This document shows positions 17,039 through 32,141 of a stretch of 45,591 nucleotides of DNA, piece after piece (the first letter of the stretch is position 1; the number at the start of each line of letters is the position of its first letter). Position numbers and translations under genes: made by a program. The stretch spans positions 1 through 45,591 of IMG/VR virus record IMGVR_UViG_3300046683_000683; one strand, given 5' to 3'. Under the pieces are notes generated by a model. It had not been told where the DNA came from. It was given only the letters and a program-made list of their open reading frames with translations, and ran no database searches. The stretch comes from a virus.

Positions 17039-17845
17039 TCACCACTCCTTCTGCGGAACAGGCACGAGGGCAATGCGCCGCTCACGCAGCAGCACTTCCG
17101 CCTCGTCCACGAGGAACCACGCGAAGCCGAGGAAGGCGTGAAGCCAGTTCCGGCCCTCGGTCGTGGGCTCAGCAGCATCTTCTAGAATCTCAAGACCGAG
17201 CTTGGTCTTCGGCATGTTCACAGCTAGTCGCTGCTCGCCATCGGCGTGGCCGACAGCAGCGAGGTCGATGCCGAGCATAAAGCTCCAAGCATAGACGCCA
17301 TGCAGCAGGGCGCTGAAGGGTCGCGGCACGTCTCGACGAATCGGTGAGAAGTGCACGGCTGCGCCGTCGTTGTTGAACAAGACGCCATCGTGCTGCTCGA
17401 GGTCGATTCCGAGAACGTGGAGTCGCTGGTGAGCAATCTCATGAACGATGCCCTCAGCACAGCCTGTCGGATCGTTGACAGTCACAGAGATCGTTAGATT
17501 GCCATTCTCGTCTGTCGGTTGTTGATGACCGCTGCTGCAGCCGCGACCTTCACCCGCAGTCGTCGAGACGTGCGGGATGAAGGAGTCAATGAGCGCAGTC
17601 AGTGGCGGTGCGAGCTTCCAGCGCTTCAGCGCAACTGCTGCCTGCCAGACTCGGGCATCGTCGAACTCGGCGAGCTTCATCTCCGGCAGCATCAGCGGTC
17701 CAGCTGCGAGCTTGGTCCAGATGAACGCCAAGCCCTCAACCGGCGAGACTCGAGGCCAGCGAAGTCGCGCAAGCCGCTTGAGCTCAAGCGTGTCGCTACC
17801 GTCAGCTTGCGGTGCCGCCAACTTCGCATAGCCACTCAGTGCCAC
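17039..17845 (-). CDS. HExxH protein resembling peptide beta-hydroxylases of RiPP clusters
   Basis: 268 aa from a GTG at 17845, with GGAG seven bases upstream and a 10-base overlap with the preceding gene; longer frames start inside that gene. The metal-binding motif HEIAH (His135, Glu136, His139) lies in GCAEGIVHEIAHQRLHVLGI. It is followed by HFSPIRRDVPRPFSALLHGV, the second conserved block of the aKG-HExxH peptide modification family found beside FxsB-type radical SAM enzymes. The family members hydroxylate peptide side chains using iron and 2-oxoglutarate. With a radical SAM maturase in the same operon, a role in modifying a tail protein is likely but unproven. Confidence 0.7.
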   Translation of the reverse strand: MALSGYAKLAAPQADGSDTLELKRLARLRWPRVSPVEGLAFIWTKLAAGPLMLPEMKLAEFDDARVWQAAVALKRWKLAPPLTALIDSFIPHVSTTAGEGRGCSSGHQQPTDENGNLTISVTVNDPTGCAEGIVHEIAHQRLHVLGIDLEQHDGVLFNNDGAAVHFSPIRRDVPRPFSALLHGVYAWSFMLGIDLAAVGHADGEQRLAVNMPKTKLGLEILEDAAEPTTEGRNWLHAFLGFAWFLVDEAEVLLRERRIALVPVPQKEW

Positions 17846-19104
17846 GAGATCACTCCAGCCTCGGTCGTTCCGGACTTCACGAGCATCGAGGGCAGCGGCA
17901 GCCCTGACTTTGAGCAAAGCGTGCCGAGATCCTCGCCGGCGTACGTGTAGACGATTAGCTTCTTGATTCCACGCAAGCGAGTCAGCAGCGGAGCGAACTC
18001 GTCAGCGCGGATCTCGAGCAATCGGCCGGGCATCAGCAGTGCAGCGTCTGCGCCCCAAGCGTCGATGGGAAACGCTTCGAGCTTGCCGACGAGGAAGTCG
18101 ACTGCTGGATGGCGTCGAGCTCCTCGCGCTGCTCGCTCCTTGTCGCTCTCGACCCCGATGCACTTGAGCAGCGAGTTGCGAATCCACAGCTTCGAGAGCA
18201 GCGTTCCGTCTCCACAGCCGAGGTCGATGACTGTTCCATTGGTCTGGCCGCAAGCACTGAGAACGGTCGCGTGCGCAGCGGCCATTGCGTTGTAGGAGCT
18301 GAAGCCGTTGTCGGCATACGGCGTCGGCTCGATCTTCGGAACAGTCAGCTCGGCACTCGGCTGCCAAGAGAATCTCACCTCGCCGGGAGTGTAGTCGGTC
18401 GAGAATTCAAACTGGAAGCCGCGAGCTCGCACGTAGGCGAGGCCATGGTAGGCGCTGTACAGGGCAGGCAGTGAGAGAAGCTCGACGGCCGCTGCTGCTC
18501 CTGAGCCGAGACCAAGCTGGACGGCAACGCCGATCATCGCTTCAGCAATTGCTGCGCTCGCTGTGCAGGAGTAGGAGCAAGGAAGATGCGGAACGAGTCG
18601 GACGCCGAGCTGGCGAAGAAGAACATTCGTTCCAGGGTTGCCTCCGACCACGGTTGCGCCGTGTGCTTGCGCTCGCGCGCTATCACGCACGCCTGCAATC
18701 TGCCAAGTGTCACGGAAGAAGGCGCGGCAGCACGAGGGAAAGCCGAGCAGCTCACCGATGGCCTCGTCGTCGTTACGATCCCAAGCTTCTGTCCAACTCC
18801 GGCTGAAGCGAGTAAGCGCAACTCGCACGCCTAACGAGCCAGCCGTTGGCGTAGCATTTGAGTATGCTGCGCCTAGCGGTTGTTCAGTGAGAACGACAAG
18901 CTCGAGTCTGTTGTCCACGGCCCAGCGACTGAGAGACGGCAGCTCGCAGTATGGAACAGCGAGAAGACAGCTGTCTCGCTGGCGAAGCCGAACGCTCTCG
19001 CGCTCGAGCACCGGCCACGTTGCAGAAGCATCCGCGATCTTCCCACGGAGCGAGTCTGCATCCGCTGCCGAAGCCCAGATCGGACCGCGAACATACTCAC
19101 GCAT
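17836..19104 (-). CDS. DUF483-like domain fused to SAM-dependent methyltransferase
   Basis: 422 aa; ATG at 19104 after GGAGGAGG. The first half has LLGFPSCCRAFFRDTW (Cys125, Cys126) and RLVPHLPCSYSC (Cys176, Cys180), the Cys blocks I associate with DUF483. The C-terminal half is a class I methyltransferase with motif I TVIDLGCGDG (292-300) and an acidic loop, CIGVESD. The paired Cys motifs could bind metal or an Fe-S cluster. It lies between a tail-fibre region and the HExxH gene, overlapping both neighbours, so it probably acts in the same modification pathway. The DUF483 assignment is from memory of the pattern. Confidence 0.7.
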   Translation of the reverse strand: MREYVRGPIWASAADADSLRGKIADASATWPVLERESVRLRQRDSCLLAVPYCELPSLSRWAVDNRLELVVLTEQPLGAAYSNATPTAGSLGVRVALTRFSRSWTEAWDRNDDEAIGELLGFPSCCRAFFRDTWQIAGVRDSARAQAHGATVVGGNPGTNVLLRQLGVRLVPHLPCSYSCTASAAIAEAMIGVAVQLGLGSGAAAAVELLSLPALYSAYHGLAYVRARGFQFEFSTDYTPGEVRFSWQPSAELTVPKIEPTPYADNGFSSYNAMAAAHATVLSACGQTNGTVIDLGCGDGTLLSKLWIRNSLLKCIGVESDKERAARGARRHPAVDFLVGKLEAFPIDAWGADAALLMPGRLLEIRADEFAPLLTRLRGIKKLIVYTYAGEDLGTLCSKSGLPLPSMLVKSGTTEAGVISWH

Positions 19105-19462
19105 GCTGAACCTCCTCCTTCTTCTCGACCGTCTGCAGCAGCCAGTTGATTGTGTCGTGGATGATTCCCTGGACTTCAGGCCGCCAGGAGGTCGTCTGCA
19201 AGTAGCGGAAGATTAGCACGAGCTCGGCTTCAGTAATCTCGATCGTCGTCGGCCCTGGCAGAAGCCGAGGCATTCGAAGACCGTACGGCAGCGCCCGATC
19301 GTCTGGAACTGAAGCAGCGTCAAGCTTCTCGAGCAGCCGGGTCAAGTCAGCGAGCAAGAGAACATCCTGCTCGCGTGGCGCTGCCATCATCAGCGCGCCG
19401 TAGATGTATTGGAATCGGATGGGATCGGGATCGTCGGTGAAGCGAAGAACAGCAGTTGTCAT
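19097..19462 (-). CDS. Tail-region hypothetical protein (121 aa)
   Basis: ATG at 19462 with GAGGT upstream, overlapping the fibre stop (ATGA). Starts LRFTDDPDPIRFQYIYGALM; mostly helical, with ITEAELVLIFRYLQTTSW and NWLLQTVEKKEEV. It sits between a short fibre and the DUF483/methyltransferase gene. It could be a fibre chaperone or a partner of the modification enzymes; no family is recognised. Confidence 0.65.
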   Translation of the reverse strand: MTTAVLRFTDDPDPIRFQYIYGALMMAAPREQDVLLLADLTRLLEKLDAASVPDDRALPYGLRMPRLLPGPTTIEITEAELVLIFRYLQTTSWRPEVQGIIHDTINWLLQTVEKKEEVQHA

Positions 19463-20010
19463 GCGAACCTCTGAGCAACGATGAAGCTGTTGGCACGGAA
19501 GATTGTGTTGACAGCGACGGCAGCGTTCTGCGCCATCTGAATCTGAATTGCTCCGGCCGTGGTGCTGTTGATAACGAAGCCTTGCATGATGAGAGTGGTC
19601 TCGACGTTCAGACCGGTCAGCGCAAGCCCTGTGCCGTAGGCCGTGCCTGCGGAGCCAGTGCCTTCTCCGATGATGCCGAGCTGTCCGGTAGCGCCGGCAG
19701 GAGCAGTCGCTGTCACCTTGAACGTCGCTCCCGCGCCGCTGATGGCTTTGATGTATGCCGCCCACGCCCATTGCTCACTGGCAGCAATAGGGAATGTGAG
19801 ACCAGGCGCATCTCCGAGCGTTGTGTTGTTGTTCTTCGTCAGCGCGGAAGTCTGCTTACCGACGACAGGGTAGATCGGCAGCAGCGAGTCGTTGATGAGA
19901 ACGTTCACGAGAGACTTGAGAAAGTTGAGATTGTCTCGGACGTGCGTGTTCATCAAGTCCGCTGTGACGGTCTCGCCCGGGTTCCACGTTCGCGGAGTCG
20001 TCCACGCCAT
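19459..20010 (-). CDS. Short tail fibre protein (183 aa)
   Basis: ATG at 20010 directly follows the stop of the radical SAM gene, with GGGAGG upstream. The N-terminus WTTPRTWNPGETVTADLMN, then HVRDNLNFL, is the attachment module shared with two other proteins here (22841-23122 and 22037-22837). The rest is a Gly/Ala/Thr-rich beta region (APAGATGQLGIIGEG, TTLIMQGFVINSTTAGAIQI) typical of trimeric fibre tips. A receptor-binding role is likely. Confidence 0.8.
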   Translation of the reverse strand: MAWTTPRTWNPGETVTADLMNTHVRDNLNFLKSLVNVLINDSLLPIYPVVGKQTSALTKNNNTTLGDAPGLTFPIAASEQWAWAAYIKAISGAGATFKVTATAPAGATGQLGIIGEGTGSAGTAYGTGLALTGLNVETTLIMQGFVINSTTAGAIQIQMAQNAAVAVNTIFRANSFIVAQRFA

Positions 20011-21240
20011 TTACTTCCTCCCTCCGAAGTCGGTATGATCGCCATGAGCATCGCCGTGCTCGACAGCTGAAGAAGAGTTGAAGCCGCTGCCTCGAGAAGC
20101 GAGAGCGGAAGCACGACGGATGGAGACCTGACGTCCTGCCTCCCATTCCCAAAGGGCAGCGGCTTCGATCTGTTTGCGGTGCGGAGCGAGGCTGAGAGGC
20201 AGCTCGCGAGTTGCCAGAAGCGCTGCTTCGAGATGCTCGAAGAGGCGGAACCAGATGCCACAGTTCGCACTCCTGTTCCGCGGATCGCCGAGCATGGCTT
20301 CGCCAGGGCACTGGCCTTTGCACATTAGAAAGAATCGACAGTCAGCACAGCCGCCGTCGGCAAAGGGAGTAGCGTACAGCGCGAGCTGGCGAGCGTAGCT
20401 CGGCGTCTCCGACTTCAACCACGAGACGTCTGTCTTGTACGTTCTCGCGCAGTTCAGCAACTCTCCTTGCGGACCGACGGCCTGAACGGCCGCCGTCGTC
20501 TGCGGATCGCAAGCGTTCCAGATGCACGTCGTGCTCTCGTCGTCACCACGCAGGAGTGCCAGCATCTCCTTGAAGATGTCGAAGTGGATGCCGAGCATCG
20601 GCTCAGCTCGATGCAGGGTCACGAGAGCCTCGAACGCCTCCTCCTCGCCGAGCGCAAGCTTTGCCGCCTCCGGCGAATCCACCTCGAGAAGATGCAGTCG
20701 AGCATTCTGCAAGCCGAGCTCGGCTAGCGTCTGAAGCCACGAGAGGAGCAGCTTGATCCTCGAGCGCGAAGCGTTCAAGGAGTGAAGGGTGAGGATTAGA
20801 CTGCAAGGAATCTCGCGACGAAGCAACTCCTCAAGCGCAGCGCAACTCTTCGCCGTCGCGCTTCTCGTCGCTTCCAGCGTCTCGAGTCTTCGAGCGTCGT
20901 TGAGCTCGGCTGGTCCGTCGATGCTGACTCCGACGTGCGTCTTGTACTTCTCGAACATCTCGAAGTGTGCCTCAGTGATTAACGAGGCGTTCGTCTGAAC
21001 TCCGGAGGAGCCGCTAAGCTTGAAGCTGCTCTCAAGAAACTTCTCGAGATCAGCAAGAGGAGTAAGGAGTGGCTCGCCTCCGAACACCGTGAAGCCCGAG
21101 CTTCCGCCGATCTTCTCGAGGCTCGCGAGCATCTTGTCCATGGAGTAGGGTGGCGCTGCAACTTCTCGCACTGTCTCCTGGTAGCAGTACGTACAGCGAA
21201 GGTTGCAGCGAACTCCGACCGGCATTGCTTCGACTGTCAT
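20011..21240 (-). CDS. Radical SAM/SPASM peptide or protein maturase with HxD tail
   Basis: 409 aa; ATG at 21240 overlaps the upstream TGA. The CxxxCxxC cluster motif is CNLRCTYC (Cys12, 16, 19), followed by GGEPLL. The C-terminal SPASM region has CIWNACDP, LLNCART, CADCRFFLMCKGQCPGEA and NCGIWF, enough Cys for auxiliary Fe-S clusters. Such enzymes install carbon-carbon, thioether or ether crosslinks in peptides. The last 19 residues (AVEHGDAHGDHTDFGGRK) are an unusual extension matching the HxD repeats of the fibre encoded two genes upstream. It lies inside the tail-fibre operon, so a structural protein is the likely substrate. Confidence 0.9.
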   Translation of the reverse strand: MTVEAMPVGVRCNLRCTYCYQETVREVAAPPYSMDKMLASLEKIGGSSGFTVFGGEPLLTPLADLEKFLESSFKLSGSSGVQTNASLITEAHFEMFEKYKTHVGVSIDGPAELNDARRLETLEATRSATAKSCAALEELLRREIPCSLILTLHSLNASRSRIKLLLSWLQTLAELGLQNARLHLLEVDSPEAAKLALGEEEAFEALVTLHRAEPMLGIHFDIFKEMLALLRGDDESTTCIWNACDPQTTAAVQAVGPQGELLNCARTYKTDVSWLKSETPSYARQLALYATPFADGGCADCRFFLMCKGQCPGEAMLGDPRNRSANCGIWFRLFEHLEAALLATRELPLSLAPHRKQIEAAALWEWEAGRQVSIRRASALASRGSGFNSSSAVEHGDAHGDHTDFGGRK

Positions 21241-22022
21241 AGCCCGAGTCCTGTCGGAGGAGTCGGCGGCGTGACGGCAGGGTTTATCAAGATCGTGTAG
21301 GATCCCTGTCCGGTTGCGCCGAGCGAGTCGGTTGCGAGAACTCGAAACGTCTTCGTCTGCGCAAGCGTAGGCGTGCCAGTGATCGTGCCGTCGATATTCA
21401 CCACGAGCCCTTGCGGTGGCCGGTCTGGACTGACGAGAGCGAAGGAGCTAAAGACTCCGCTTCCGCCCATGGCGCTGACTCTCGAGGAGTATGGAACGCT
21501 GACTTGGCCAGTCGGCAACGTGGCCGGCAGCATCGTGACGGGATGAGGCAGCGCGGCGGTAGGGTAGATTTCAATCACAAGAGTCCTCGTGCCGATTGCT
21601 CCGGCGGAATCTGTCACGGAGAAACTGATCGTCTGCCGCTGGACGCTTGTCGGCACGCCGTAGATCACGCCGGTCGTTTCGTCGAGTGAGAGACCGATCG
21701 GAAGTCGAGCTCCACCGTTGAAACCGTACTTGACGTAGTTTCCCGTTCCGCCGGAGGCGCTGATCTGCGCAGCGTAGCTGACGTTGACTGCTCCAGCCGG
21801 CAGCGAAGCAGGGATGACCGTTATCGGCTGGACTTGCAGCAGCAGTGCGTCGATCTGAGCTTGCATGGAGTCCAGTACAGCTTGCGTTCCGTTCAAGTCG
21901 CGAATGCGAGCTTGGACGAAGGCAATTACATCGTCTGTCGTGATTCGGCCCTTGGAGGCTAGGAGCAAAGCTTCCACTTGCCTCGCAAACGTCAGCAGCT
22001 CAGATGTGATATCGACTGCCAT
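21237..22022 (-). CDS. Tail fibre/adhesin with two Ig-like (He_PIG) domains
   Basis: 261 aa; ATG at 22022 after AGGAGAG. An N-terminal helical segment (LLTFARQVEALLLASKG...DDVIAFVQARI), likely coiled coil, is followed by two similar beta domains. Each has the He_PIG signature of the form LPxGxxxVxYxxxxxxxGGxG and GLxxxxxxGxIxGxPT (LPAGAVNVSYAAQISASGG...GVIYGVPT and LPTGQVSVPYSSRVSAMGG...GTITGTPT). Such domains mediate weak binding to cell-surface polymers. It ends in a Pro-rich tail. The gene lies directly upstream of the radical SAM gene, overlapping by four bases. Confidence 0.85.
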   Translation of the reverse strand: MAVDITSELLTFARQVEALLLASKGRITTDDVIAFVQARIRDLNGTQAVLDSMQAQIDALLLQVQPITVIPASLPAGAVNVSYAAQISASGGTGNYVKYGFNGGARLPIGLSLDETTGVIYGVPTSVQRQTISFSVTDSAGAIGTRTLVIEIYPTAALPHPVTMLPATLPTGQVSVPYSSRVSAMGGSGVFSSFALVSPDRPPQGLVVNIDGTITGTPTLAQTKTFRVLATDSLGATGQGSYTILINPAVTPPTPPTGLGL

Positions 22023-22036
22023 CGGTCTCTCCTCTT

Positions 22037-22837
22037 CTACGTCGGCTGGTCGCCGTGAGCGACGTCACCGTGGCCGGCATCAGTATGAGTATCGGTATGA
22101 GTATCGCTATGCGTGTCAACATGCGCGGCATCCGCATGAGCGTCAGCATGACCGGTGTCCGAGTGATCGGTGTGAGAGTCTTGATGCGCAGTGTCGGTAT
22201 GCGTATCGCTGTGCGTGTCAACGTGCGCAACGTCGCCATGGCCGGAGTCAGTGTGAGAGTCAATATGACCGAACATCTCACTTGTGCCGGTCTGAATAAT
22301 CCAATGGAGATAAGTCGTCTCGCCCCAGAGGCTCGCCGCGCTTGCAGCTGCGTCGCTGTGCATTGCAGTCGCTGCGCCGGGAACGATTCTCTCGACGCCA
22401 GTCGAGGAGATGTAGTGGAGATCGCTGCCCTCGATCCAGATGCTCCCAGCGAGCGCGCCACCGCCAGGCGAGCCGTTCGAGGTGCCAGCGAACGTCTTAG
22501 TCGTTCCTGCGGAATCCTTGTAGACAAGGTTCTGCCCGACGACTGCCATGTCTCCTGCATCCGTCCCCGTGTACGCTCCTTCAACCGGGATGACTAGTCT
22601 TCCTGCTCCGCTGAAAGTGTTCTTCGCCGTCAGCGTGTTTGCCGAGGCGAGCAGCCCGACTCCTGTTAGATTGAGTCCGCTGAGGTCGAGGAGGTAGGAG
22701 GAGCTGAGTCCGAGAATCTTCCCCGCGTCGTTCCGAGATGTCTTCAGCACGTTCAGATTGTCGCGAATCTGCTCGTTGAAGTCGTCGTGATCCGGAATCG
22801 GAATCGTCGACCAGTCAACAGGAGTATGCCAGCTCAT
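22037..22837 (-). CDS. Tail fibre with C-terminal His-X-Asp repeat array
   Basis: 266 aa, ATG at 22837. Three regions are visible: an attachment module (MSWHTPVDWS...EQIRDNLNVL), a beta region (SANTLTAKNTFSGAGRLVIP, shared with the gene upstream, up to about residue 190), and a tail of 73 residues (191-263) built of 17 HxD units separated by zero to two residues. The repeat has an extreme composition (His, Asp, Thr, Ser, Ala, Gly). It could coordinate metal ions along a trimeric fibre axis or be the substrate of the nearby radical SAM and HExxH enzymes. Both roles are inference. Confidence 0.85.
   Translation of the reverse strand: MSWHTPVDWSTIPIPDHDDFNEQIRDNLNVLKTSRNDAGKILGLSSSYLLDLSGLNLTGVGLLASANTLTAKNTFSGAGRLVIPVEGAYTGTDAGDMAVVGQNLVYKDSAGTTKTFAGTSNGSPGGGALAGSIWIEGSDLHYISSTGVERIVPGAATAMHSDAAASAASLWGETTYLHWIIQTGTSEMFGHIDSHTDSGHGDVAHVDTHSDTHTDTAHQDSHTDHSDTGHADAHADAAHVDTHSDTHTDTHTDAGHGDVAHGDQPT
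22049..22267 (-). repeat. His-X-Asp codon repeat, 17 units
   Basis: Encodes residues 191-263 of the fibre: H-I-D, H-T-D, H-G-D, H-V-D, H-S-D and so on. The DNA contains related but non-identical 9-12 base units, for example around GTATGAGTATCGGTATG, so the array probably grew by slippage and then diverged at synonymous sites. Confidence 0.85.
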
Positions 22838-22840
22838 TGC

Positions 22841-23122
22841 TTACGTTCCCCACTTGTCCGCGCCAGTCGGAATCACGAGCCGACCTGCACCAGAGTAAGT
22901 GTTCTTCGCCGTCAGAGTGTTCGCGCTCGCGGTCTTTACTACTCCCGTGAGATTTGCTCCGCTCAAGTCTGCAAGCGTTGAGCTTGAGAGTGCGCTGATC
23001 TTGCCAGTTGCGGTGTCGACCGGAACAGCGAGAATCGTCATGTTGTCTCGGATCTGCTGATTGAGATCAGTTGCAGTCACGAGCTGGTTCGGAGTCCACG
23101 TTGCTGGAGTTGTCCATGCCAT
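22841..23122 (-). CDS. Small tail protein, attachment-module paralogue (93 aa)
   Basis: ATG at 23122. The N-terminus MAWTTPATWTPNQLVTATDL, then QQIRDNMTIL, aligns with the two other attachment modules. LSGANLTGV and ASANTLTAKNTYSGAGRLVIP match residues 53-84 of the HxD fibre closely. It stops where that fibre continues, so it is either a short connector or a partial duplicate of the fibre's N-terminal part. It lies directly downstream of the tail-tip gene. Confidence 0.75.
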   Translation of the reverse strand: MAWTTPATWTPNQLVTATDLNQQIRDNMTILAVPVDTATGKISALSSSTLADLSGANLTGVVKTASANTLTAKNTYSGAGRLVIPTGADKWGT

Positions 23123-23132
23123 ACTTTTCTCC

Positions 23133-24728
23133 TTACGTACTCAGCCGAGTGTCTGTGCCAGTCGTGCTGACACCGAGCAGCCAGAAGCGATTCCAGAGCC
23201 CGTAGGCGAGCTTGGTTGTCTGATCGAGCTGGGATTGCGTAGCGCTGTCGAGAATCCAGTAGACATCCCGCGAAGCGGGAGCGAGCGTCCAAGTGCAGTG
23301 CATAACGTACTCTTCATCAACGGTGATCTGAACTCGGTTGATGAAGAAGTCCGCACTGACTCCCGTTACCTCGTCTTGGATTGTGATTCGGTCGCTGATT
23401 TCTCGAACGATTGCTTGCTCTGTGAAGGTTGCGTCTCCACAGATGAAGCCGCATTGCTCGGGGATTGTGTCCTCGGTCTTGTTCGTGTTGAGCAAGTAGT
23501 ACGCGGCTTGCCGAGCGATCTCTGTCTGCGCTTGGTACGGCATCTCGAACGGCAGCGACTGATCGCCAACATCTGCTTGGCTCGTTGCGTCTGCTGCTTC
23601 GAAGATAACCTCGCCATTGTCATAGATTCCGATTCCTCGCAGCTGGTTGAGGTTGAGATAGCCGTCTTGAGGACCGTTGTTCGTAACGACAATGTCTGCC
23701 GCGTTGCCGTAGGCGACTGTTCCGGTGAAGCTGAGCTGAGAAGTGATGTTCGTTCCGCTGCCGTCCTGTGCGGTGTTGAAAAGATAATCGGTCGTGGCGG
23801 TCGGAGGAATCTGAACGCTCGAGGCTTGAGCGCCGATGCGCTGGGAGTCTTGACTGTTGTCCTTGTACAGCGCTTTGATTGTGTAGCTCGTTCCTCGGGG
23901 AATGAACGGCTTGTCTTGCTGTGTGTAGATGACCGTCAACGAGGCGTCTTGCCGCCGCGGGTGCATCTTCACAAGGACTCGGTTGAAGATGTTGTCTCGC
24001 GAGCGCTTAGGATCGAGCGCGTTGACTGAGGTGAAAGTCGCAACGGAAGTCAGATTCGTTCCGCGAGCTCGCCGATCCTCGAAGACCACGAGTCCGTCGT
24101 TGACGCTGTCTCCCTTCGGATAGAAGAAGCCGAGCTCGGAGTTGCAGATTTTCTGAATCTCACCGAGCGCTGCGAGTCCTTCGTCTCGAGCCGTGTCGAA
24201 GGCGAAAGGATACGTCTCCATGCCGAAGCCAATCTGCCGAGTGATCGGTTGCTTCACCATGGAGTTTAGAAGTGTCGTGATAAGCTCGTCGCTGCGCTTG
24301 TTCGTCTGGACGTCGAGACCTTTCACCGTTGCGCGCGCCGCCTCGTCCATCCAGTCGACGGCTTGGAAGATTGTCCTCTGCTCGCCATACAGTCCCGGAA
24401 TCGGAGCAATCTCGCTAATCCTCCCGTTCCACTTGTAGTAGGTTGGAACGAGAGGATCATAGGCGAACCAAGCTCGAACAGGCGTGCCGAGCTTGAAGCC
24501 GCTGCGAGCATTCGCATGGCCGGGAGAATAGAGTCCGACTTTCTTCTGACTGTTGTTCGCGGAGTTGTTCAGCGCGCCATGAAGCGTGCCAGTATCAGCA
24601 ACTCGATCACTTGGACTCTTTCCCGAGATGCCGTAGTCGAAGTCAATCGGCCGGATGAGATCATCATCCACGCTCGTCCACACGCCTGGCGAGAACTGCA
24701 TCTCGACGTGGAGAGTGAACTCACTCAC
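23133..24728 (-). CDS. Minor tail / tail-tip hub protein
   Basis: 531 aa, ATG at 24728, overlapping the tape measure stop by four bases. Position (after tape measure, before fibres), length and beta-rich sequence fit the hub or distal-tail protein of siphoviruses. Features include SPGVWTSVDDDLIRPIDFDY near the start and VYWILDSATQSQLDQTTKLA near the end, the latter a common ending in actinophage-like minor tail proteins. It would link the tail tube to the fibres and probably contacts the DNA-ejection path. No enzymatic motif is seen. Confidence 0.8.
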   Translation of the reverse strand: MSEFTLHVEMQFSPGVWTSVDDDLIRPIDFDYGISGKSPSDRVADTGTLHGALNNSANNSQKKVGLYSPGHANARSGFKLGTPVRAWFAYDPLVPTYYKWNGRISEIAPIPGLYGEQRTIFQAVDWMDEAARATVKGLDVQTNKRSDELITTLLNSMVKQPITRQIGFGMETYPFAFDTARDEGLAALGEIQKICNSELGFFYPKGDSVNDGLVVFEDRRARGTNLTSVATFTSVNALDPKRSRDNIFNRVLVKMHPRRQDASLTVIYTQQDKPFIPRGTSYTIKALYKDNSQDSQRIGAQASSVQIPPTATTDYLFNTAQDGSGTNITSQLSFTGTVAYGNAADIVVTNNGPQDGYLNLNQLRGIGIYDNGEVIFEAADATSQADVGDQSLPFEMPYQAQTEIARQAAYYLLNTNKTEDTIPEQCGFICGDATFTEQAIVREISDRITIQDEVTGVSADFFINRVQITVDEEYVMHCTWTLAPASRDVYWILDSATQSQLDQTTKLAYGLWNRFWLLGVSTTGTDTRLST

Positions 24729-27700
24729 TTCTTCACCGCCTGAGTCTTGATCTGCGCATCTCGGAAAGCTCGCTGCAGCATTGCTGGCAGGACTGTCCGC
24801 ATGTCTTGCCGCAGTGAGCGCAGCTCGTTGAGCGTTGCATGTCCGCCGTCTCCCGCGCTCGAGGCAGCAGACGCGCCGCCGCCTGAGAACGAAGTCGATG
24901 CCGTCATCGGCAACGCCGCGGTCATCTGCCCTGCGGTCGAGGCTACGACTTCTCCCGTGAACGCTTGCAGCTGCGGCTTCGTAACAACTGCCTCGATACC
25001 ATGGAGCACTGCGAGCATTCCGCTTCCGTAGTTCTGAAAGCCGTCGCTGCCGCCAGCGTAGCCAGGCGTCCCGGGCGGCGGACCGTAGGCAAGGCTGTCA
25101 GGTCCTGCAGGAATCCCGGCCGGAACGTTTGGATCAGGAATCGCGTTGATTGCTGTTGCTGCTTTCTTGGCCGCGGCCGGAATCTCTGCTCCGAGCACTT
25201 CAGCAATGCTGCGCAGCAGCTCGACCATCTGCTCCATCGGATCAGTCGGGAAGGCGACGCCAGCAGCAGTAGCTTGGTCAATGAGCGCTTGAGTATTTGC
25301 GTCGATGGCGAAGCCATACTTCTTGCTGGCGTCAATGATCTGCCCGAGCTGCGGAGCAAGCGCCTGGTACAGAGCGGTGCCGTTCACTCCTGCTTCGCTC
25401 AGTGCATTCGCTGTTCCGCTGATCGCACTCTCGAGACCAGTGAACGTCCCTAGCGTCACGAAGCCAAGCTTGTCCATTGCTCCGAACTGCTGACTCATGC
25501 CGTCGAGGACTTCGAGGAAACCTTTCACCGAAGGATCGGTCTGGTTGTTGATGACGTTCGCGAGCTGAACGAACGGCGCGAGCAGTGCAGCAGCTGCCGT
25601 GTTCCCTTCAGCCGAAAGCTTGTTGTAGAAGTCGACGATCTTGTCTCCCTGATCCTCGAGTGCTTGGACCAGGCCCTTCTCCGCAATCTCCGCTTGGAAG
25701 CCACCGACGAAGAACTCGGCAGCTGCCGAGCCCATCTCGCCGAGAGGAACGTCCTTGGCAATGTTGGTGATTCCTTCGAGAATTTTGTCTGCGCCAGCCT
25801 CGAGCTCGCTGATTGCCTGCTGAGCGTACTCCTTCATGTTCGCCGTAAGCTCGCCGGTTGCGATTGCTTGCTGGAACAGTTGAGCCGTTAGCTTCTTCGA
25901 TGCAGCCGTGCCCTCGTCTGCGAGCTGACCGAAGAGCTTGTCGATCTCCGCCAGTCCTTCTTTCGCTGGCGCTGTGCCATCGGCGACTGCCGTCATGAGC
26001 TCGCCAATCTTGTCTGCGAACTCGCTGGCGCCTTTGCCACTGTCCTCGATGATCTTGTCGAGGTTCAGGAGCTCGGCAACGCTTCGAGAAACCTTCGCGC
26101 TCGACTCCGTCGACTCGATTGCTTTGGCCGTGGCCTCAGTGATGTCGACTCCCCACTCCTTGCCAACTTCGCTCATCACCTTCTTATACTCCGGCTTGTG
26201 GAAGAGCGACTTCACTGCCGAGAAGACTTTCGTCGCTCCGGAGATCACGGCTGTGATCTTCTGAGTAATGTCTCCCTTCATAAAGTTGCCGGCATCGGTT
26301 AGAAGTCCTGCGCCGAGCTTCGAGACTCCTCCAAGCGCCTTGCCGATCTTCCCACCGAGGGCGTCGAACATTCCGCCGAGACCATCGAGCAGCCCGCCCA
26401 TCTCTCCCATCTTCCGAAGCTCCTCGTTGAGCTTCGCCTGTTGCTCCTTCACTCCTTCCGTTGCAGTCGCAACAGCGATGAGATTCTGTCCTCGTTCCGT
26501 CAACTGACCGTCGACCGTGTTCTCCAGCGTGATCTGTGCAACTTGAGCCGCGAGCTGCATCTTGAGATTCGCCAGAGTGCGATCGAGGCTAGGCTGCAAG
26601 CTGTTCAGCGCATCGTTCCAGCCGATGAGAGACTGAAGGTATTGCTGCTGATACCGAACTGCTTCCTCAACGGCGTTCTGAGATGCCACGACCGCGTGCA
26701 TCGACTGAGCCCAGAGCGTTGTCTCCGTTCTCAACTTCGCAATCGTAGCAGCGAGCATTGGGTACTTGGCGAGTTGTTCGGAAAGCTTAACGTTAAACTC
26801 GTCGGCTTTCTGGTCGATGTCGCTCTGAGCTTTCTGATACTGCGTCATGCCAGCTTGCGTGACGCCGAGCCACATCTTATTCAGCTCGACGCCAAGCTTC
26901 TGAGCGGCAGCGTTTGCTTGCTCCTGGTCTTTCGTCAACTTCTGCCAGGAGTCGCCGAGCGCTTTGCCATGGCCGGCAGCGACAGCCGCTGCTGTTCCCG
27001 CGTGTTCGATGCCGTGCTGCAGCTTGCCTGCTCCGTCGAAGACGGCATCCACAACCTTGAGCGCTTTGCCCCAGCCCTGAAGGTGTGCCGCAACGGTCTT
27101 CCTCGTCTCCTCAGTCGTCTTCGCAAGCGACTTGGTATACTCATTCCACGCTGACTTGACTCCGTCAATCGAGCCGTGCTCCAAGGAAGCGAGCGCTTTG
27201 CCGAGGAAGAGAATACTCGCTACGAGCATCTTCGCTCCGCCAACTGCGGAGTCGAAGACGACGTTGAGATAGCCGAAGTAGAGCAGCGCGCCGCCAATGA
27301 CTGCAACGAGCACGCGGAAAGCGCCGACCGCGTAGTAGAGACCGACCTCGACGAGTTTGCGAATCTCCTCCTTGTGCCTGTTGACCCACGCTGTTGCTTG
27401 GACAATGGCATCGGTAACGGTGTTGATTACGAGATGCAAGGCTTCGCTGTTGGCAATTGCTCCGCCGATGTTGTGCTCCATCGACTCGAGGGCGATGCTG
27501 ACTCCCTTAAACTTGATCGCCAGCTCGGCGCCAGCCTTGATGTCTTCCTCGCTCATGACTGCCCCGAGCTCATGCGCGCGTTTCTTCAGCTCAGCGAGAT
27601 GCTCTGCCATCGGCAGTATCTCGCGGAAGCCTCGGCCAAGCAGCGCAGCTGCGTCTGCCGCTCTCCGCGCGGGATTCTCGATGCCTGAGAGATGCTCGAG

Positions 27701-28183
27701 AACGTCGGAGAGTGCTTTGTCCGGAGATTCGTTCCGAAGCTTCTCGAAGCTCAAGCCGAGGTCGCTGACAGCTTCGATTGTCTTCGACGATCCTTCGCCG
27801 AGACTCTTCTCGAGCTTCGCGCTGGCGCCTGTAAGCGCGTCAACGCTAACGCCAGAGAGTCGAGCCGCAATCGCCATTTCTTGGTAGGCGTCGGTCGACA
27901 TCTGCGCTTTGGCAGCAGCGACTTCTGTCTCATGCGCGAACTCAGCAGTCTTCTCCGTCAGCTCGCCGAGGGCAACGAACGTTCCGACAACTGCAGTCGT
28001 GACGACGAGCAAGCCTGCGGCAACAGCACCAGCCCCGCCTGCTGCCAGCGTGCCGAGGGAGAGATTGAAGTGTTCGAATTTCCCTTCTGCATGTTCAATC
28101 CCGTGCTCGAACTTCTCGAAGGCCTCGTGGAACTTCTCTCGAACCTCGAGGCTTGCACCGATTACGCCTAGATCAAGACTCAT
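24725..28183 (-). CDS. Tape measure protein
   Basis: 1152 aa, the longest gene here. ATG at 28183, four bases after the stop of the frameshifted chaperone. Helical, Ala/Leu/Glu-rich throughout, with hydrophobic segments near residues 45-75 (GTLAAGGAGAVAAGLLVVTT) and 265-315, and Gly-rich stretches in the C-terminal part. This is the usual make-up of siphovirus tape measures, which set tail length and pass through the host membrane. Downstream of the G/GT pair as expected. No lytic domain is recognised within it. Confidence 0.95.
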   Translation of the reverse strand: MSLDLGVIGASLEVREKFHEAFEKFEHGIEHAEGKFEHFNLSLGTLAAGGAGAVAAGLLVVTTAVVGTFVALGELTEKTAEFAHETEVAAAKAQMSTDAYQEMAIAARLSGVSVDALTGASAKLEKSLGEGSSKTIEAVSDLGLSFEKLRNESPDKALSDVLEHLSGIENPARRAADAAALLGRGFREILPMAEHLAELKKRAHELGAVMSEEDIKAGAELAIKFKGVSIALESMEHNIGGAIANSEALHLVINTVTDAIVQATAWVNRHKEEIRKLVEVGLYYAVGAFRVLVAVIGGALLYFGYLNVVFDSAVGGAKMLVASILFLGKALASLEHGSIDGVKSAWNEYTKSLAKTTEETRKTVAAHLQGWGKALKVVDAVFDGAGKLQHGIEHAGTAAAVAAGHGKALGDSWQKLTKDQEQANAAAQKLGVELNKMWLGVTQAGMTQYQKAQSDIDQKADEFNVKLSEQLAKYPMLAATIAKLRTETTLWAQSMHAVVASQNAVEEAVRYQQQYLQSLIGWNDALNSLQPSLDRTLANLKMQLAAQVAQITLENTVDGQLTERGQNLIAVATATEGVKEQQAKLNEELRKMGEMGGLLDGLGGMFDALGGKIGKALGGVSKLGAGLLTDAGNFMKGDITQKITAVISGATKVFSAVKSLFHKPEYKKVMSEVGKEWGVDITEATAKAIESTESSAKVSRSVAELLNLDKIIEDSGKGASEFADKIGELMTAVADGTAPAKEGLAEIDKLFGQLADEGTAASKKLTAQLFQQAIATGELTANMKEYAQQAISELEAGADKILEGITNIAKDVPLGEMGSAAAEFFVGGFQAEIAEKGLVQALEDQGDKIVDFYNKLSAEGNTAAAALLAPFVQLANVINNQTDPSVKGFLEVLDGMSQQFGAMDKLGFVTLGTFTGLESAISGTANALSEAGVNGTALYQALAPQLGQIIDASKKYGFAIDANTQALIDQATAAGVAFPTDPMEQMVELLRSIAEVLGAEIPAAAKKAATAINAIPDPNVPAGIPAGPDSLAYGPPPGTPGYAGGSDGFQNYGSGMLAVLHGIEAVVTKPQLQAFTGEVVASTAGQMTAALPMTASTSFSGGGASAASSAGDGGHATLNELRSLRQDMRTVLPAMLQRAFRDAQIKTQAVKK

Positions 28184-29886: not shown

Positions 29887-30278
29887 CAGCGCACCTTCAT
29901 CTCTTTCGCTATGTCTTCCATCATCGAGCCGCCGGTCTCAGCGAGCCAGGCTTTCTGGAGGAACTTCTGGCCAGTTCCTGGAGGATTGAAGACGATTGTC
30001 TTCCCCTCCCAGCTCGGCGGATCGTGTTTGGAAGGGTTCTCGTGGACAGCGATGGCGTGTTCTGCGGTGAAGACAACTGTGACCGACCGGCCTTCTTTCG
30101 AGACGATCAGCTCGGCGCTTCCCCTGAGAATTCCGTCTCGCTCCGGAGCGTTCTCGACAGCCGTCTCCTTGACCCTCTTGCCGACTCGCAGAAGTCCCGC
30201 TCGAGCGCGCTTGCTGAAGTCGCCTCCCAGCTTCCGAACGTTCGCGCGTACTCGCGCGGAATCAAGCTTCGACGGCAT
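29886..30278 (-). CDS. Neck protein, HK97 gp10-like
   Basis: 130 aa, ATG at 30278. Helical N-terminus (DFSKRARAGLLRVGKRVKET), then APERDGILRGS and VTVVFTAEHAIAVHENPSKH, with KFLQKAW near the end. The pattern AP-x-x-x-G-x-LRxS with a following strand and xxAxxVHE is typical of the HK97 gp10-like connectors between head and tail. It is separated from the other connector genes by the inserted sugar cassette. Confidence 0.82.
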   Translation of the reverse strand: MPSKLDSARVRANVRKLGGDFSKRARAGLLRVGKRVKETAVENAPERDGILRGSAELIVSKEGRSVTVVFTAEHAIAVHENPSKHDPPSWEGKTIVFNPPGTGQKFLQKAWLAETGGSMMEDIAKEMKVR

Positions 30279-31425
30279 CTTCCACCTTGATAGGTTGAAG
30301 AACAGAGGAGACTTCTTCGGCGAAGCGTGCGCCGATCTTCTCCCAGCGGAAGCGAGGCTCGCCGATCAGAGACAAGCCTTTCCTTCTGAGCTCCGTCCGA
30401 AGATCCTGCTCGCGGTACAGCCGGTCGAAAGCAGCGATCATCTCTTCCTTGTCCGGGATTCCGCCGACTGCGTTGATGTTGTTCGGAGTGCAGGAGACGG
30501 TCGGACAGCTGATCTGAAGCGACGCTTCTCTCGGCCACTCGCCCGTCGCCGACCACGCCGGCAGGATCTGCGGAATACCGCAGGCCATGGCTTCCATGTG
30601 GCAAAGCCCCCAACCTTCGTAAGCTGTCGAGAACATCCCGTCGAAGGAGGAGTAGACGTTTCGCATTGCAGCATCCGAAGGCCCGCAGCCCGTGCGAGGT
30701 TCTCCGACGATCATCCTCGCGCTGATGCCCAAGTATTCGCCGAGCTGTTTGATATCGAAGCCGGAGTCGCCGGTCGGAGCGACGTGCAAGTACAGATAGG
30801 CGTTCTTGACGTCCTTGCTCTTAACCCACTCGGCGAAGTACATCATGGCGAGGTCGATCCGCTTACGCGGCTGGTTGCGACCGACAACGCCGAGGATGAA
30901 AGCAGAGTCTCGCATGAACGACGGCAGGCCTTGCCGAGCTTCACTCCGAGGAACAGGGTGGAAGACGTTAATATCCACGCCGAGCGGAATGACTGAGCTC
31001 GCTCCGAGAAACCCTCCGAGCCTCGCCTCTCGCTCGCCGAACTCAGTCCAGAAGATCACCTTCTTACATCCGTTCATCTCGTTGCCGCGGCAATTCTTCC
31101 CGTCGACCGCGACGCTCGCGACCATCGGCGTACCTTTGCAGGCATCGAGGTAGACTGCAATGTTCCACGGATCATTCGTCACGCAGACGACGTCCGGGCG
31201 GATTTGCTTGATGAGTCCCGGGAGTCGGCGAAGCCCGAAGCCGTCTCCGCCGCCCAAGGCGTAGGGAGGGTAGATCGGGTACGGAAAGCCATGCGGATCG
31301 CCGAAGTAGTTGATCGCGAGCATATGCACTTCATGCCCTGCTCGCAGCAGGCCGTCTGCATATGCGTGATTCATCCGAGCGAAGCCGGTCTGCACCGCGC
31401 CGTCGCCCACCAGTAGTACTCTCAT
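30262..31425 (-). CDS. Glycosyltransferase, GT-B (group 1) family
   Basis: 387 aa; ATG at 31425, overlapping the upstream stop (ATGA). The N-terminus MRVLLVGDGAVQTGFARMNH has the usual Rossmann strand and Gly loop. The donor domain has VIPLGVDINVFHPV, FILGVVGRNQPRKRIDLAM and YEGWGLCHMEAMACGIPQI, where the E-x7-E motif is EGWGLCHMEAMACG. It transfers a sugar from an activated donor, probably the one made by the neighbouring aminotransferase and acyltransferase. Its position between neck genes suggests co-expression with virion proteins. Confidence 0.92.
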   Translation of the reverse strand: MRVLLVGDGAVQTGFARMNHAYADGLLRAGHEVHMLAINYFGDPHGFPYPIYPPYALGGGDGFGLRRLPGLIKQIRPDVVCVTNDPWNIAVYLDACKGTPMVASVAVDGKNCRGNEMNGCKKVIFWTEFGEREARLGGFLGASSVIPLGVDINVFHPVPRSEARQGLPSFMRDSAFILGVVGRNQPRKRIDLAMMYFAEWVKSKDVKNAYLYLHVAPTGDSGFDIKQLGEYLGISARMIVGEPRTGCGPSDAAMRNVYSSFDGMFSTAYEGWGLCHMEAMACGIPQILPAWSATGEWPREASLQISCPTVSCTPNNINAVGGIPDKEEMIAAFDRLYREQDLRTELRRKGLSLIGEPRFRWEKIGARFAEEVSSVLQPIKVEDAVEA

Positions 31426-32141
31426 GCTTGCCTCACTTTTAGAGATGGGACGACGCCAATGCGAAACCCCTGAGCGCGCGCGTCTTCGCACCAACCGACG
31501 AGGCATCCCTCGTTGCGAATTCTCGCGCTCCTCGCTACGTGTCCCCGCATAGCAAGACAGGAGCCGACGCTGCTAACTTCAAACACGTCTGATTCGAGTA
31601 CTCCAGGGAAGAACGGGGAGAAGGGCGCGAACCTCCGACCGTCAAGTCCTCGGAAACCCCAGATGTCGTAGAAACATTCTCCTGCCATGACGAGAGGAGC
31701 GAAGACGTCGAAGCCAGCTGGCCGCTCGTCTGCGAGCAGCGCGAGCTGCATCAGTGTCTCCGGCTCCCAGAACAAATCGCTCTCGACGTAGACAAGAAGG
31801 TCGTCTTGATCTGTGATGCTGCGAAAGATCGCATTTCCGACGAGTGAGAGCGCGGCCATTCTCTCCGGCGACTCCGTCGAGCCGAACTCCGGGCCACCAT
31901 GGTTGCACTTCACCAGCTCGAGGGAAAGATCGCGACTTCGCGCTTCAGCTAAGAGCATCTCGTCCGTTCCGTCAACGGAGTCGCCCTCCACTGCAACGAC
32001 GCGCAAGCGGCCGGGCCAGATGCTTCGCAGACGGTCAACTTGAGCGAGGTAAGAGGGCACACGACCGCGGCAATTCCTGTGCGCGGAGCCAACTACAAGG
32101 TTGACCGGCACTCTCGTTCCCTCGTCTCCGTGGTCATGCAC
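31422..32141 (-). CDS. Glycosyltransferase, GT-A type (CAP59-like)
   Basis: 239 aa, ATG at 32141. NLVVGSAHRNCRGRVPSYLA and LRVVAVEGDSVDGTDEMLLA give the GT-A nucleotide fold; DDLLVYVESDLFWEPETLMQ carries the acidic metal/donor site. The block NC-x-x-R...V-x-x-VEGDSxDGT resembles cryptococcal mannosyltransferase (CAP59/Anp1-type) proteins. It probably adds the first or a branching sugar of the glycan built by this cassette. It starts at the last base of the upstream methyltransferase stop. Confidence 0.82.
   Translation of the reverse strand: MHDHGDEGTRVPVNLVVGSAHRNCRGRVPSYLAQVDRLRSIWPGRLRVVAVEGDSVDGTDEMLLAEARSRDLSLELVKCNHGGPEFGSTESPERMAALSLVGNAIFRSITDQDDLLVYVESDLFWEPETLMQLALLADERPAGFDVFAPLVMAGECFYDIWGFRGLDGRRFAPFSPFFPGVLESDVFEVSSVGSCLAMRGHVARSARIRNEGCLVGWCEDARAQGFRIGVVPSLKVRQA

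Follow-up and report, generated by a model that had tools for sequence, protein, structure and literature searches.

Why does a radical SAM (rSAM) maturase of a virus end in the same His-x-Asp (HxD) tripeptide that is repeated in a fibre protein encoded two genes upstream? The question is raised by the IMG/VR virus record IMGVR_UViG_3300046683_000683, of which positions 1 to 45,591 (45,591 nucleotides, hereafter the window) were analysed together with homologous loci. The explanation that we favour as a whole, and to which we give even chances, is that the enzyme belongs to a phage-specific maturase family of the rSAM/SPASM type, that it acts on the fibre array in the manner of a cyclophane maturase, and that its flexible tail is a self-substrate.

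Organization of the Locus

The genes of the window on which the argument is built are the following.

17039..17917, minus strand: αKG-HExxH-type peptide β-hydroxylase with an HEIAH motif (TIGR04267, 53.1 bits, cut-off 40)
17836..19104, minus strand: DUF483 and SAM-methyltransferase fusion, a conserved partner (PF04467, PF13649 weak, below curated cut-offs)
20011..21240, minus strand: rSAM/SPASM maturase with C-terminal HxD tail, 409 aa (Pfam PF04055, 1.3e-14)
21237..22022, minus strand: Ig-like protein (He_PIG), encoded between the fibre and maturase genes (PF05345, 2.6e-20)
22037..22837, minus strand: putative tail fibre with a C-terminal array of 19 HxD, the proposed substrate (gene position and sequence)
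24725..28183, minus strand: tail tape measure protein (phrog_2854, 5e-18)

The cassette comes after the tape measure gene of a tailed phage, and so belongs to the region for the distal tail and fibres; from its gene position, the HxD array protein would be a virion tail fibre. Nearly all of its 19 HxD units lie in the C-terminal third of the protein, which ends GHGDVAHGDQPT, confirming the fibre with an HxD end that the earlier note had placed two genes upstream of the maturase. An N-terminal module (M-A/S-W-x-T-P...RDN) is shared by three products of the window (19459-20010, 22841-23122 and 22037-22837), only one of which has an HxD array, and a glycosyltransferase gene (30262-31506; phrog_2170, 4e-22) is found among the structural genes.

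In 82 loci a DUF483 homologue was detected close to the maturase gene, with the methyltransferase glycine motif of the fusion in 72 of them, and DUF483 is present in nearly every complete locus; the form without the methyltransferase occurs in Thermus phages and some others. In the window, the DUF483 part of the 17836-19104 product, LLGFPSCCRAFF, is fused to the methyltransferase. Homologues of the HExxH protein were identified beyond the window in five loci (L226, L230, L232, L233 and L244, with L232 and L233 being near-copies), two of the four scanned scoring above the curated cut-off, and a PDB sequence search with this protein gave no match.

A Phage Family of SPASM Maturases

In the maturase, Pfam yields radical SAM-type domains only. 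An AF2 model, whose input alignment left out the rows from named phage records, has a mean pLDDT of 91.7 and matches best ChlB (9gm3, 9gmc; Z 28.8, 2.9 Å over 321 residues, 20% identity), in a tie with anSMEcpe (Z 28.5). The fold is that of an rSAM SPASM enzyme, and the nearest structures are peptide- or protein-modifying members of this group. Against the curated NCBIfam maturase models the protein scores below every cut-off, from DynA at the top (78.5 bits of 450) to AmcB (71.7/425), YhhB (55.8/445), GrrM (52.6/310), XyeB (41.6/450) and FxsB (41.2/370). The family probably works like a cyclophane maturase, yet it lies outside every curated maturase family.

A scan of viral contigs using the single maturase sequence returned no match, and an alignment with Thermus phages was required. 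Full-length homologues with 40–46% identity are encoded by the Thermus phages phiMa, Cumys and phiLo; all three carry the HxD tail, are adjoined by a DUF483 protein and have proteins with 53–101 HxD nearby. A first alignment search retrieved 18 viral relatives and a second one 271, of which 80 were retained; the patterns of the larger homologue scan were taken from the catalytic cysteine regions, so that the tail had no part in them. Once near-copies (95% identity) had been discarded, the set counted 70 sequences: 69 from phages or viruses and one from a close locus in a Bacillota genome. This locus (Chengkuizengella axinellae, L023:6614-10154), probably a prophage, encodes two HxD array proteins, a tail-less maturase and a DUF483 protein. 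The CxxxCxxC cluster motif and the SPASM cysteine pattern CX9-16GX4C...CX2CX5CX3C...C were each found in 69 of the 70 homologues; in the alignment (A4), C12, C16 and C19 are invariant, as are C244, G259, C264, C298, C301, C307, C311 and C327 in the SPASM part.

The C-Terminal HxD Tail

The maturase C-terminus reads SSAVEHGDAHGDHTDFGGRK followed by the stop codon, and two elements can be distinguished in it.

20029..20058, minus strand: tail core HGD-A-HGDHTD, with HxD at residues 395-397, 399-401 and 402-404 (read from the sequence)
20011..20028, minus strand: FGGRK and stop codons doubling as the Shine-Dalgarno sequence (GGAGGGAGG) of the next gene (sequence reading)

The open reading frame (20011-21240, minus strand) confirms that the enzyme ends in three HxD units (HGD, HGD and HTD, residues 395-404), encoded on the minus strand at 20058-20050, 20046-20038 and 20037-20029; the very end is FGGRK and not FGG. 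The last codons are TTC GGA GGG AGG AAG TAA ATG, the ATG of the next gene being at 20010. Since FGGRK is the ribosome-binding site of that gene read as protein, only the HxD part needs explaining. Shuffling placed three HxD within the final 60 residues in 0 of 20,000 cases when the whole protein was shuffled and in a fraction of 5e-5 when the tail alone was, and among the ORFs of the window of at least 60 aa only the maturase and the fibre have three HxD within 40 aa.

The tail is conserved. At least two HxD within the last 70 residues are present in 60 of the 70 homologues (one, L122, has a single unit and nine have none), whereas among the 851 remaining ORFs of 150 residues or more in these loci two reach that number. 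The check that had been proposed, whether maturase homologues keep the tail, is answered positively; conservation extends across homologues about 40% identical, and the L169 branch, ~32% identical, still carries HGDSHGDEHGDKPHGD. When the 70 sequences are arranged in a tree by their catalytic region, the tail changes state four times, versus 9.7 in shuffles. An HxDHxD core is found in 51 of the 60 tails, chiefly HGDHTD, HGDHWD or HADHTD, and a few tails have Tyr in place of His (YTD, YSD). Different synonymous codons are used side by side for H, D and G (for His, 28 CAT and 20 CAC), which indicates that the protein, not the DNA, is what is kept, and rules out a DNA-level signal as the cause of the tail. 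The maturase gene of L138 contains several copies of the HGDHTD unit, produced by an exact tandem repeat of 51 bases. The same locus (L138:10403-13316) harbors two tandem maturase paralogues, the first with the expanded tail and the second running off the locus end.

In the AF2 model, residues 390-409 have pLDDT below 50 and are predicted to be disordered, and the tail is likewise disordered in a second AlphaFold model, from a clade in which the core lies between two helices; neither model gives it a confident position. It is separated from the last SPASM cysteine by 24–95 residues (median 46), a length that would in principle bring it to an active site, either in cis or on a partner chain.

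Tail loss maps to two places of the tree, the L012/L298/L023 clade and a second clade in which L246 retains the tail. Since most of the nine tail-less homologues have arrays, the tail appears dispensable for the reaction of the family, and catalysis probably does not need it. The nine tail-less loci and L122 were searched for an HxD protein that could substitute for the tail, and only fibre arrays were found.

The Fibre Array as Putative Substrate

The association between maturase and array was also examined starting from the array. In an independent scan, viral contigs were searched with a DNA pattern for four HxD units without reference to the enzyme and, among the matches listed, all nine loci with an ORF of at least 21 HxD encode an adjoining maturase. 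In 56 of 60 non-redundant loci with an upstream array on the same strand, the array lies within 1.5 kb of the maturase, and in many of these 60 the array gene overlaps the maturase start by 1–4 bases. In most homologous loci the fibre-equivalent gene is directly upstream of the maturase, and HxD arrays sit at the C-terminus of proteins mostly about 200–1470 aa long. Together with the 60 tailed homologues, the nine rich arrays support the proposal that the tail ties the maturase and the fibre to each other. In phiLo, two array proteins, phiLo_137 (L004:15807-17231) and phiLo_136 (L004:17253-19601), with 72 and 101 units, respectively, are encoded on the strand opposite to the maturase.

Cumys and phiMa have been considered in a different light: Kolesnik et al. 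(2024; PMC11437467) describe the rSAM module of these phages and propose DNA modification, and cyanobacterial homologues, which their paper places near deazapurine genes, agree with such a role. DNA instead of protein as the target of the entire module is nevertheless very improbable. In Cumys and phiMa the gene adjoining the rSAM gene encodes an array of 53–54 HxD, and the independent scan showed, among the matches listed, an array next to the maturase in each of its nine loci; in addition, the nearest structures belong to SPASM enzymes that modify peptides or proteins, and a peptide hydroxylase co-occurs in some loci. The evidence favours protein modification.

What the enzyme may do to the array is suggested by the sequences in the gaps between HxD units, compared with within-gap shuffles. 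Aromatic-x-Asp is found 108 times (24.7 ± 4.4 expected), His-x-Asn 64 times (8.1 in shuffles) and aromatic-x-Asn 48 times (17.5), while non-aromatic-x-Asp is depleted (28 versus 72.5) and no His-x-Glu was seen; thus, His is replaced mostly by Tyr or Phe and Asp mostly by Asn. Furthermore, whole arrays beside the maturase consist of Phe-x-Asn (L299:4196-5986, 38 units; L276:2163-3200, 37 units) or His-x-Asn (L298:10859-11545, 16 units). The fibre arrays obey the rule aromatic-x-(Asp/Asn), the type of motif, with Asn or Asp as third residue, on which cyclophane maturases such as OscB, XncB and YxdB act. Known rSAM enzymes join Phe to Cβ of Asn, Tyr to Cβ of Asp and His to Cβ of Ala or Arg (PMC11002830), and the replacements observed in the arrays match these three-residue cyclophane products.

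The same replacements argue against a chelating array, Phe being no ligand and Asn a poor one. They also bear on the reading of the tail as a His/Asp-rich end that binds a metal, such as iron, for use in assembling clusters, with the arrays coordinating metal too. His-rich tails are known in nickel chaperones, and the T4 gp37 needle has metal-coordinating HxH motifs. Both H and D are metal ligands, and the tails retain His rather than Phe; however, the arrays put poor ligands or none in the place of ligands, some of them being Phe-x-Asn throughout, and the ligand-conserving exchange of Asp with Glu is absent. We therefore consider metal binding unlikely. The maturase probably introduces cross-links into the repeats of the tail fibre encoded by the same phage, and chemistry of the cyclophane type, with which the fold match to ChlB and the hydroxylase gene of the window agree, is rather likely.

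Tail and Fibre Have Different Grammars

If the tail resembles the fibre, it could simply be derived from it, as in the recombination scar considered in the earlier note: the two genes are neighbours and have the tripeptide in common. Yet in tail units the x position is occupied by Gly in 58% of cases and by Thr in 15%, versus Ser 22%, Thr 20% and Gly 17% in fibres, and adjacent units (HxDHxD) account for 32% of the spacings in tails and 7% in fibres. The tail has a grammar of its own, H-G/A-D-H-T/W-D, unlike that of the fibre. Moreover, tails do not fit their own fibre better than other fibres (p = 0.32), 47 of 200 synonymous recodings match the own fibre as well as the tail DNA does, and the tail is conserved among distant homologues. 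These results contradict a scar, which we regard as highly improbable; as a recent event it is refuted, leaving only an origin by very ancient duplication. Mixed codons, the missing fit to the own fibre and the recoding test indicate instead an old module kept at the protein level.

It had also been asked whether the repeat type of the tail covaries with that of the fibre, and this is not supported. The numbers of HxD in tail and fibre are weakly correlated (rho 0.37, p = 0.004, uncorrected for relatedness) and, in the single record L299, the array has 38 FxN and 2 HxD, the record holds no other HxD array, and the maturase keeps an HLDHSD tail; tail and fibre grammar can therefore part company. 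In the same record, HxD pattern hits in a collagen-like GPP gene were out of frame and were discarded. Two findings had been named in advance as speaking against the link of tail and fibre: absence of the tail in all close homologues, which is not what is seen, and a tail where the fibre of the phage has no HxD, of which L299 is a partial instance.

A Model for the Tail

In the mechanism that we propose, the substrate of the maturase would be the C-terminal aromatic-x-(Asp/Asn) array of the fibre protein encoded by the same phage. The reaction would most likely form three-residue cyclophanes, with a bond between the aromatic ring and the β-carbon of the residue two places on. The αKG-HExxH hydroxylase in some phages, including that of the window, and the DUF483(-methyltransferase) protein in nearly all would belong to the same pathway. 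The C-terminal HGDH(T/W)D element of the maturase, flexible and maintained by selection, would most likely be a self-substrate in cis or of a dimer partner, and once modified it may serve as a built-in regulator or anchor. The tail follows the aromatic-x-Asp grammar of the substrate, a few units with Tyr in place of His included, and a self-substrate is its most likely role. Self-modification of the tail comes somewhat short of even chances, and the enzyme is a candidate for one that modifies both itself and the fibre. More tentative still is the full form of the proposal, namely that the maturase autocatalytically cross-links its HGDH(T/W)D tail and that the cross-linked tail leads to self-regulation or to incorporation of the enzyme into the virion together with a fibre stiffened by cyclophanes.

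The strongest alternative is a role in docking or autoinhibition, in which the unmodified tail would be bound by the DUF483 protein, the hydroxylase or the groove of the maturase itself, allowing complex assembly or acting as a pseudo-substrate that inhibits the enzyme until the array displaces it. The grammar of the tail is tighter than that of the fibre (HGDHTD, HGDHWD or HADHTD in 48 of 70 cores), and this tightness agrees no less with specific recognition than with self-modification. The tail, with its His, also persists where the array has turned Phe-x-Asn (L299), which speaks against a plain substrate role, and nearly all complete loci offer DUF483 as a partner. However, DUF483 is also present in the tail-less loci L232, L241, L253, L012 and L023, and some tails are multiplied internally like the repeat array, unlike a simple tag. 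Docking is, in our estimate, possible and rather less probable than a self-modified tail.

Comparison With Known Systems

In the His-Xaa-Ser system (HxsA/B/C/D) of cellular hosts, rSAM genes lie beside a protein with a His-x-residue repeat; the repeat is HxS, and the maturase scores 35.6 bits with the HxsB model, whose cut-off is 370. In borosins such as OphMA, an autocatalytic N-methyltransferase is fused to its core peptide, so that the substrate is at the C-terminus of the same chain. The maturase of the window similarly has a substrate-like sequence at the C-terminus of the enzyme chain; it differs in the chemistry, having no N-methyltransferase domain, and in the presence of a separate substrate protein, the tail probably not being the product.

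A close parallel in enzymology is ChlB/ChlH, described as a fusion of an rSAM with an αKG-HExxH enzyme that makes a cyclophane and β-hydroxylates Asp and His (PMC12636437). The window pairs the same two kinds of enzyme in separate genes, and its proposed substrate is a large phage protein for which no leader peptide was identified; furthermore, its maturase bears a substrate-like tail. Similarly, OscB/GrrM, XncB/XyeB, YxdB, HaaB, YhhB and FxsB are SPASM rSAM enzymes acting on aromatic-x-residue motifs, including Phe-x-Asn and Tyr-x-Asp. The maturase is far below the cut-offs of these three-residue cyclophane enzymes (41.2–71.7 bits versus 310–450), whose substrates are short precursor peptides with a leader, unlike the long arrays in a structural protein found here. 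The Cumys/phiMa module shares with the window the rSAM enzyme, DUF483 and a third protein, and the accessible part of its description (Kolesnik et al., 2024) makes no mention of HxD repeats or of a maturase tail. In the openly accessible literature, no paper was found that links phage fibres with radical SAM cyclophane chemistry.

Significance

If the model is correct, phages apply RiPP-type radical chemistry to their own tail proteins, with arrays that correspond to about 20–100 predicted cross-links per chain, and a conserved substrate-like tail binds the maturase to its class of substrates. The family, which includes members in cultured Thermus phages, would make self-modification by an rSAM enzyme accessible to experiment, and C-terminal aromatic-x-Asp/Asn arrays provide a sequence rule for finding further proteins of this kind. 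A function would thereby be assigned to an otherwise unexplained gene module.
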